From Marispirochaeta aestuarii (GTDB taxonomy: Bacteria; Spirochaetota; Spirochaetia; JC444; Marispirochaetaceae): 64,000 bases of DNA. Of the stretch, positions 34,757-36,742 are shown piece by piece. Position 1 is the stretch's first letter. Every line of letters starts with the position of its first letter. Position numbers and translations under genes: made by a program. Location of the stretch: assembly GCF_002087085.1 (NCBI RefSeq), contig NZ_MWQY01000009.1, forward strand, positions 1 through 64,000. Reading direction: 5' to 3'. The notes beneath the pieces are model-generated. The model saw nothing but the letters and a program-made list of their open reading frames with translations. It had not been told where the DNA came from and made no database searches.

Positions 34757-34802
34757 TACCTACATTTATGTATATATAAACATAATTACCTACATTTTTG
34801 TA
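34757..34802 (+). promoter_or_regulatory. Two identical palindromic boxes upstream of amtB, exactly 30 bp apart
   Basis: TACCTACATTTATGTA (34757..34772) and TACCTACATTTTTGTA (34787..34802) agree at 15 of 16 positions and start exactly 30 bp apart, close to three helical turns, so both face the same side. Each contains an inverted repeat (TACAT/ATGTA in the first, CTACA/TGTAG in the second). They lie 121-166 bp before the sigma-54-type -24 element. This is the usual distance for enhancer sites bound by an NtrC-like activator. The sequence differs from the enterobacterial NtrC site. Confidence 0.7.
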
Positions 34803-34922
34803 GCTAAAGAAAATAACAGATACATTCCTGAGGGCCGGATAAGCTTAGTCTTCATAAACCGTCTCCTGTTAATTATTTGTGCAGCAAAGACTTATTTGTT
34901 GACACCCAATCCAGGCAAAACT

Positions 34923-34938
34923 TGGCATGTCTCCTGCA
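34923..34938 (+). promoter_or_regulatory. Sigma-54-type (-24/-12) promoter of amtB-glnK
   Basis: TGGCATGTCTCCTGCA matches the consensus TGGCACG-N4-TTGCA at all but two fixed positions and keeps the required 10-bp gap between GG and GC. It ends 41 bp before the amtB ATG. Ammonium transport and PII genes are classic sigma-54 targets, and paired upstream boxes lie at enhancer distance. Confidence 0.75.
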
Positions 34939-34979
34939 TTAACAAAGATGAATTGAACACATCCTTTGTGGAGGAGTCT

Positions 34980-36335
34980 ATGAAACGAATCTTCGTAATT
35001 GTTGTCCTGCTTGCCCTGGCTTCCATATCCGTGGTTGCCGATGAGCTAAGCGACACCCTCGCCCTGTACAGCGATGCCTTTGACATGATCTGGCTGATAC
35101 TGTCCGCGGCTCTTGTATTTTTCATGCAGGCAGGTTTTGCCATGGTCGAAACAGGATTGACCCGGGCAAAAAACGCCTCGAACATTCTCATGAAAAACCT
35201 GATGGATTTTTCAGCCGGTGCTGTTGTCTTCTGGGCCCTCGGCTGGGGACTCATGTACGGCGCCGACGCCCTGGGCGGATTTCTGGGGAGTGACGGCTTC
35301 TTCCTCGCCTACACCGCCGAGTCAATGGAAGGCTACGGTGTATCCGACATGTCCGCCATATTCAGGGACTGGATGTTCCAGGTCGTCTTTGCCGCCACTG
35401 CCGCGACAATCGTCTCCGGGGCCATGGCGGAGCGGACCAAGTTTTCCGCTTACCTTGTCTATTCGGTATTTATCTCGGGCCTGCTCTATCCCATCTCCGG
35501 ACACTGGATATGGGGCGGCGGCTGGCTCGCGGAGCTCGGGTTCCACGATTTTGCAGGGTCCACCGTAGTACACTCGGTAGGCGCCTGGGCCGCCCTCGCC
35601 GGGGCCATTGTTCTCGGTCCCCGGATCGGAAAATACGTCAAGGTCGGCGACAAGGTGAATGTCAGGGCCATTCCCGGGCACAATATGCCCCTGGCTGCCC
35701 TGGGTGTATTCATACTCTGGTTTGGATGGTACGGCTTTAACGCCGGTTCCACCCTCTCCGGGACGGACCTGTCCATAGCAGCGGTCGCAACAACCACGAC
35801 CCTGGCGGCTTCTGCGGGAGCCATTCTGGCCATGACAACTTCCTGGATCTGGTTCGGTAAACCCGATCCCTCCATGTCACTGAACGGCGCCCTGGCGGGA
35901 CTGGTTGGAATAACCGCTCCCACGGGGGTAACGACTCCCGGAGCAGCCATTCTGATCGGCGCGATTGCGGGTATACTGGTTGTCGCCAGCGTGGAGTTTA
36001 TCGACAAGGTGCTGCATATTGATGATCCGGTGGGTGCCATTTCCGTCCACGGGGTCTGCGGAGCCTGGGGCACCATGGCGGTGGGGCTCTTCTCCAGTAA
36101 CCCCGACGTTGGTCTGGGCCTGTTTTACGGCGGAGGGTTCTCCCTTCTCGGCGTACAGCTGCTTGGAATCGCGGCCGTTTTCGCCTGGGCCTTTCTGGGT
36201 GCCCTGCTGCTGTTCACGATAATCAGGGTGAGCATTGGCCTAAGGGTAAGCGAAAAGGAAGAGATGCAGGGCCTGGATATCGGCGAGCATGGAACTGAGT
36301 CCTATTCGGGCTTCCAGATTTTTCAGAACATGTAA
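34980..36335 (+). CDS. amtB: Ammonium transporter
   Basis: About 451 residues: a signal-like N-terminus ([20 protein letters not shown]), then eleven transmembrane segments. The conserved [19 protein letters not shown] opens helix 1. The pore histidine pair is in [13 protein letters not shown] and [16 protein letters not shown]. The start at ATG 34980 has GGAGG-type GAGGAG 4 nt upstream; the frame is open further upstream but that part is the promoter. It conducts ammonium inward and is normally shut by GlnK, encoded 11 bp downstream. Confidence 0.95.
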
Positions 36336-36346
36336 GGAGGTTGGGG

Positions 36347-36688
36347 ATGAAGTTAATTATTGCGTACATTCAGCCCGACAAACTGAACGAAGTAAAGCAG
36401 GAGCTCTATCGTGCGGAAGTCTACAAGATGTCCGTAACCAACGCCCTGGGATGCGGGCAGCAGATGGGTTTTACCGAAACATACCGCGGAGTGGCGATAG
36501 AGGTAAACCTGCTCAAGAAGGTCCGGATCGAGATTGCCGTCAATGATGATTTTGTGAAGAAAACCGTCGACGCCATCATCAAGGGGGCCAAAACAGGGAA
36601 CATTGGAGACGGTAAGATCTTTATTGTACCCCTGGAAGAGACAATACGCATCAGAAGCGGAGAGACCGGTTCTGATGCCATAGGATAA
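36347..36688 (+). CDS. glnK: PII signal protein GlnK, lacking Tyr51
   Basis: 113 residues with the whole PII fold. It starts [13 protein letters not shown], and the C-terminal nucleotide loop reads [20 protein letters not shown]. The T-loop is full length, but where E. coli has YRGAEY it has YRGVAI, so the uridylylated Tyr51 is an isoleucine and control by GlnD is excluded at that site. It could still sense ATP, ADP and 2-oxoglutarate and block AmtB. GGAGG lies 5-6 nt before the ATG. The gene follows amtB by 11 bp and is followed by a terminator. Confidence 0.93.
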
Positions 36689-36716: not shown

Positions 36717-36742
36717 GCCCGCCTCTTGCAGGCGGGCTTTTC
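36717..36742 (+). terminator. Terminator after glnK
   Basis: GCCCGCCT (36717..36724) pairs with AGGCGGGC (36730..36737), followed by TTTTCTT. It separates amtB-glnK from metH, whose start is only 46 bp further, leaving little room for a leader riboswitch. Confidence 0.88.

Follow-up and report, generated by a model that had tools for sequence, protein, structure and literature searches.

The window analysed here, a stretch of 64,000 nucleotides, comes from contig C9 of a Marispirochaeta aestuarii assembly that is 97% complete. It carries, on the plus strand, the ammonium transporter gene amtB (34980–36335, 451 residues; PF00909, E 3.4e-127), followed by glnK, which codes for a PII signal protein (36347–36688, 113 residues; PF00543, E 2.7e-25). 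A likely ribosome-binding site, GGAGGAG, was found from the sequence at 34970–34976 (plus strand) in front of amtB. The operon is probably closed by an intrinsic terminator at 36717–36742 (plus strand), recognised from its sequence and fold as an 8-bp G+C-rich hairpin with a T-rich tail, the fold z-score of which is modest (-1.6).

The first-pass annotation had proposed a sigma-54 promoter before amtB, and all the features on which it relied are present. The -24/-12 element TGGCATGTCTCCTGCA (34923–34938, plus strand) agrees with the consensus TGGCACGNNNNTTGCW at 14 of 16 positions. The exact GG-N10-GC spacing that marks sigma-54 promoters can be read directly from the sequence, and a gap of 41 bp separates the element from the amtB ATG at 34980. 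Judging from the -12 element, transcription of amtB is predicted to start near 34949. The number of 14/16 matches across the window is within chance (6 seen, 6.2 expected); the element at amtB owes its weight to its position and to its conservation in relatives, not to the match alone. Matching -24/-12 elements also precede amtB of spirochaete relatives.

Two near-identical boxes had also been pointed out upstream of this promoter, TACCTACATTTATGTA at 34757 and TACCTACATTTTTGTA at 34787, offset by exactly 30 bp. Both were found, and they stand above chance in the window: with up to three mismatches, three matches were counted against 0.39 expected, and no shuffle reached three or more. Each box extends to a 20-bp dyad of the form TA-N2-TACA-N4-TGTA-N2-TA. 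The distal operator dyad, TACCTACATTTATGTATATA, occupies 34757–34776 with its TACA-N4-TGTA core at 34761–34772, and the proximal one, TACCTACATTTTTGTAGCTA, occupies 34787–34806 with its core at 34791–34802; both were read directly and are given no strand. They score 22.0 and 23.8 bits, respectively, with a motif model derived from the exact pairs described below. Measured from the predicted start, the dyad centres lie ~182 and ~152 bp upstream, and the -12 element follows the proximal dyad at ~140 bp. A reading of the box as a direct repeat of 16 bp was rejected, since what is conserved is the dyad. The same type of dyad precedes amtB of relatives, and the loci of named Spirochaetaceae, Spirochaetales and Treponema mostly consist of one or two dyads, a strong -24/-12 element and then amtB. 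The sites, the promoter-like element and their conservation are near certain.

Paired dyads across Spirochaetia

A blind pattern, TACA-N4-TGTA-N14-28-TACA-N4-TGTA, was searched for in 198 Spirochaetia genomes, and the same pattern read backwards served as the control. The search returned 64 paired dyads in 42 of the 198 genomes, as compared with two matches of the reversed pattern in one genome. The centres of the dyads were 30 bp apart in 44 pairs, which is the commonest spacing, 31 bp in 10, 29 bp in 5, 32 bp in 2, 33 bp in 1 and 40 bp in 2, so that 59 of the 64 pairs fall within 29–31 bp. The members of a pair are spaced by three helical turns, occasionally by four. A sigma-54 element matching at least 13 of 16 positions was present within 260 bp of 49 of the 55 distinct pairs examined, against 5.8% of 1582 control positions; at the 14/16 threshold, it was present by 43 of 55 pairs against 1.2% of controls. 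In the pairs examined, the median distance from the proximal dyad to the -12 element was 133 bp.

Downstream of the pairs lie amtB or amtB-glnK, glutamine synthetase genes of type III (glnN) and type I (glnA), and gltB, the last of which was named from its sequence. An amino-acid ABC transporter is also found in this position, with a lysine/arginine/ornithine binding protein and GlnQ as the nearest models. Family models and gene order point to further targets, namely polyamine-, nitrate/taurine- and oligopeptide-type ABC ATPases and an Amt-GGDEF fusion. In a diazotroph, a homocitrate-synthase-like gene (nifV) lies in this position, as does the gene for a solute-binding protein with molybdate as its probable substrate. 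The box had been expected to recur near other nitrogen genes; it does so across Spirochaetia, as well as before a second amtB-glnK operon of M. aestuarii. The amtB enhancer-promoter is real and is part of a conserved, apparently undescribed nitrogen-assimilation regulon, for which we infer binding and activation by the protein considered in the next section.

Some neighbours of the pairs were recorded separately. In genome G109, two genes resembling hgcA (NVWCAAGK motif, PF03599) and hgcB, a pair known for mercury methylation, were seen at L251:3608–4932 and in L252; they end just before a dyad pair, the sigma-54 promoter of which faces an ABC transporter. Immediately after a dyad pair and its sigma-54 element, a gene for a protein of 104 residues was seen at L250:4079–4393 and L253:4661–4975; the tail of this protein is rich in Cys, no match to it was found in Pfam or NCBIfam, and in L253 its gene is followed by an Amt-GGDEF fusion. 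In genome G183 (L242:1897–2178), aspS and a divergent DUF4954-family gene flank a dyad pair, and the sigma-54 element there (13/16) is on the side of aspS.

The candidate activator and its relatives

An activator other than NtrC had been suggested to act at the boxes, and the comparison of genomes supports this, the candidate being a GAF-AAA+-Fis protein of the NifA/AnfA family. In most named spirochaete relatives, such a protein of ~530 residues is encoded directly upstream of amtB, and in many relatives its gene is immediately upstream of amtB, glnN or glnA. The candidate gene of M. aestuarii is at G000:C1:19425–20975, away from the amtB of the window. Its product, the ortholog of the activators of relatives, shows 54–72% identity to them, while the next best protein of the same genome reaches ~40% over the full length. 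It contains one GAF domain, an AAA+ domain (PF00158) with the GAFTGA motif and a Fis-type HTH (PF02954); an AAA+ domain with a GAFTGA loop together with an HTH is the mark of bacterial enhancer-binding proteins. The score with the NifA model TIGR01817 was 563.4 bits (cut-off 528.85) over profile positions 3–455 of 534, a match which ends before the HTH. The recognition helix, SERIMGLRVKK, is unlike the TPRQ type of classical NifA. The protein is not an NtrC: it has a GAF domain and no receiver domain, and it scored 373.6 bits with the NtrC model TIGR01818 (cut-off 558.6).

The proposed promoter depended on the presence of rpoN, and one copy was found in the genome. The activator was detected in 108 of the 198 genomes and rpoN in 193, so the pairs track the activator and not sigma-54. 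The activator is present in 41 of the 42 pair-bearing genomes, the exception (G080) being 80% complete. A held-out set was made of amtB promoters from genomes without an exact pair, and a dyad was scored at a threshold of at least 10 bits. A dyad was found in 28 of 48 such promoters from activator-bearing genomes, against 0 of 78 reversed sequences, and in 3 of 15 promoters from all genomes scored as activator-negative. One of these three genomes, G162, does carry the activator immediately upstream of amtB, in a gene that a contig end truncates; the other two, with no detected activator, are drafts (G084 and G189, 81% and 90% complete). About a third of the examined amtB genes in activator-bearing genomes are without a clear dyad, and some of these are Amt fusion genes. 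The co-occurrence is strong support but not proof, because shared ancestry is a partial confounder.

Of 43 activator genes, 30 also have a dyad of at least 10 bits in their own upstream 200 bp, often 15–25 bp ahead of the start codon, as compared with 11 of 204 control genes. Dyads in this place suggest negative feedback, by which the gene would be autoregulated. Upstream of the activator gene of M. aestuarii, a dyad of 13.5 bits was found, and at 30 bp from it a weak one of 1.1 bits.

In enterobacteria, glnK-amtB has a sigma-54 promoter preceded by paired enhancer dyads, and its regulator is NtrC, a protein with a receiver domain, a kinase partner and TGCAC-type sites. The spirochaete protein carries GAF in the receiver's place and its site differs, whereas the target genes and the paired-dyad plan are alike. 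The first-pass annotation had called the boxes unlike known sites, which holds with respect to NtrC. They are not wholly new in kind, however, because TACA-N4-TGTA is a special case of TAC-N6-GTA, the AnfA consensus of Rhodobacter capsulatus, which is backed by mutation and gel shift (PMC7294313). In that organism, two direct-repeat AnfA sites lie between anfA and anfH (PMC7294313); AnfA resembles the spirochaete system as a GAF-AAA+-HTH one-component sigma-54 activator with paired sites between its gene and the target promoter. It differs in driving the Fe-nitrogenase operon, whereas the spirochaete targets are assimilation genes, and in the cysteine motif of its GAF domain, whereas the activator of M. 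aestuarii has no cysteine before the AAA+ domain. Neither is there a linked anfHDGK, since a model search of this genome gave no nifH-family reductase (nifH/anfH) over the cut-off.

The likeness to NifA lies in the TIGR01817 score and in a tree, where the activator clusters with NifA/AnfA. The NifA site is TGT-N10-ACA (PMC2820453, PMC7294313), whereas the conserved dyad, taken as the operator of the activator, is TACA-N4-TGTA; control of nif genes is likewise not seen in this genome, which is without a NifH over the cut-off. A spirochaete precedent is EbpA of Leptospira interrogans, a GAF-type activator for which control of amtB together with RpoN was shown by binding and gene disruption (PMC12655853). 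EbpA is described as FhlA-like with two GAF domains, whereas a single one was found in the activator here. DVU1949 of Desulfovibrio vulgaris is a predicted one-component sigma-54 activator of an autoregulated nitrogen metabolism and transport regulon (PMC4641369), and is likened to the spirochaete activator by the description of that regulon. Given the AnfA site, the precedent of EbpA and the predicted analogue DVU1949, the mechanism is of a known kind. What is new is the identity of the regulator, its operator and how broad the regulon is in Spirochaetia; no description of such a regulon in this class was found in the literature searched, which covers few subscription papers.

The assimilation clade of the tree groups with nif-linked spirochaete copies, and the two are jointly sister to proteobacterial NifA and an AnfA-like protein. 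The nif clade has six members, of which L262 alone does not adjoin nif genes. An N-terminal CxxC was found in 0 of 43 members of the assimilation clade versus 5 of 6 members of the nif clade. NifH over the cut-off occurs in just 21 of the 198 genomes, versus 108 for the activator. In the diazotrophic spirochaetes G025, G027, G109 and G001, the NifA-like gene of the second clade (L257, L258, L259 and L261) was observed between the homocitrate-synthase-like gene and nifH. The dyads of diazotrophs are weak before nifH and stronger between nifV and the putative molybdate transporter, upstream of one or the other of these two genes, and they are of the same type as those at amtB.

Proposed mechanism and alternative readings

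Comparison of sequences makes it very probable that the NifA/AnfA-family protein is the activator that acts at amtB-glnK. We propose that, upon nitrogen shortage, dimers of the activator would occupy the two dyads (CCTACA-N4-TGTAGG type), three helical turns apart, and would form an active AAA+ oligomer. DNA looping would carry this oligomer to RNA polymerase-sigma-54 at 34923–34938, and the promoter would open for amtB-glnK. The same activator probably also controls its own gene and the second amtB-glnK operon, and perhaps glnN. Nitrogen status is the probable signal, received by the GAF domain through PII or directly.

In GlnK of the window (36347–36688) and in that at L141:1880–2221, the T-loop Tyr51 was judged by eye to be absent, with Ile or Thr instead. 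We take Tyr51, by alignment to E. coli PII, to be the uridylylated position of the T-loop, and its apparent loss in both proteins would favour sensing by bound metabolites. PII feedback on the activator is plausible because glnK belongs to the operon. AnfA of Rhodopseudomonas palustris is a target of PII proteins, with the GAF domain as the probable site of their action (PMC12093980).

Of the 15 strong sigma-54 activators encoded by the genome, several have receiver domains, and adjoining genes need not regulate one another. The dyads may bind one of the 14 others, two-component NtrC-like proteins among them, with the NifA-like gene being a mere neighbour. We consider this improbable, as the dyad tracks the NifA-like gene across genomes and is found upstream of that gene itself, and none of the four receiver-type activators tested reaches the cut-off of an NtrC model. 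The dyads could also be operators of a repressor or dual regulator from outside the sigma-54 family, acting with an unrelated activator; many activator genes have them 15–25 bp ahead of the start codon, a place that resembles that of repressor sites. Negative autoregulation explains this place equally well, however, and the median of 133 bp upstream of the -12 element is an enhancer position, which leaves such a regulator very improbable. Sigma-54 promoters need an activator with an upstream site. Chance would mean an AT-rich intergenic repeat with a coincidental -24/-12 match, and a match of this quality is expected by itself in a window of this size. This reading is contradicted by the reversed-pattern control, the spacing peak, the promoter coupling and the held-out promoters, and we give it next to no weight.

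With the NifA/AnfA-family protein as the regulator, the activator appears to turn on ammonium uptake and glutamine synthesis across many free-living spirochaetes. Its role as a general nitrogen regulator across the class Spirochaetia is somewhat better than an even prospect. With the same reserve, we favour a broader view, in which a NifA/AnfA-type one-component activator would replace NtrB-NtrC in Spirochaetia as the general regulator of nitrogen limitation. One operator would then serve ammonium transport, glutamine synthetases, glutamate synthase and nitrogen-scavenging transporters. It would be shared by a sister lineage, namely the copies linked to nif genes in diazotrophs. Many nitrogenase-free spirochaetes carry proteins that databases will name NifA; our data suggest for these a role in nitrogen assimilation and an AnfA-type site rather than a NifA site. 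The result offers a concrete operator and a testable regulon for groups of spirochaetes, termite-gut treponemes among them, in which little is known of nitrogen control, and bears on the kinship of the regulators of nitrogen fixation and nitrogen assimilation.

Candidate regulon in the genome

The regulon of M. aestuarii was assembled from pattern searches. The second amtB-glnK operon, on contig C1, was located via one of the two best matches of the 16-mer outside the window, and it has a 22.3-bit dyad and the sigma-54 element TGGCACAGCTCTTGCT. The glnN gene has the sigma-54 element TGGCATGAATATTGCA and a dyad of only 7.5 bits; a possible partner dyad 30 bp further upstream overlaps a terminator-like hairpin and was left out of the argument. 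The 16-mer box at three mismatches gave 39 matches in the whole genome versus 48 for the reversed control, which makes this count uninformative. Exact flanked dyads number seven in the genome, three of them in the two amtB promoters. None of the other four (on C3, C8, C13 and C21) was taken into the regulon; three are without a sigma-54 element of at least 13/16 within 280 bp, and the one on C13 has a 14/16 match but itself falls within an ORF. The match TACCTACGGTTTTGTA near another activator (C5:141595), with 7.2 bits and in a coding region, was also rejected.

A cluster of glutamine synthetase genes was noted at G000:C27:8500–13950 (L159, L161 and L162), where two type III genes and one type I gene stand in tandem on the same strand. 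The type I gene is followed by a partial ORF resembling a GlnE-type adenylyltransferase.
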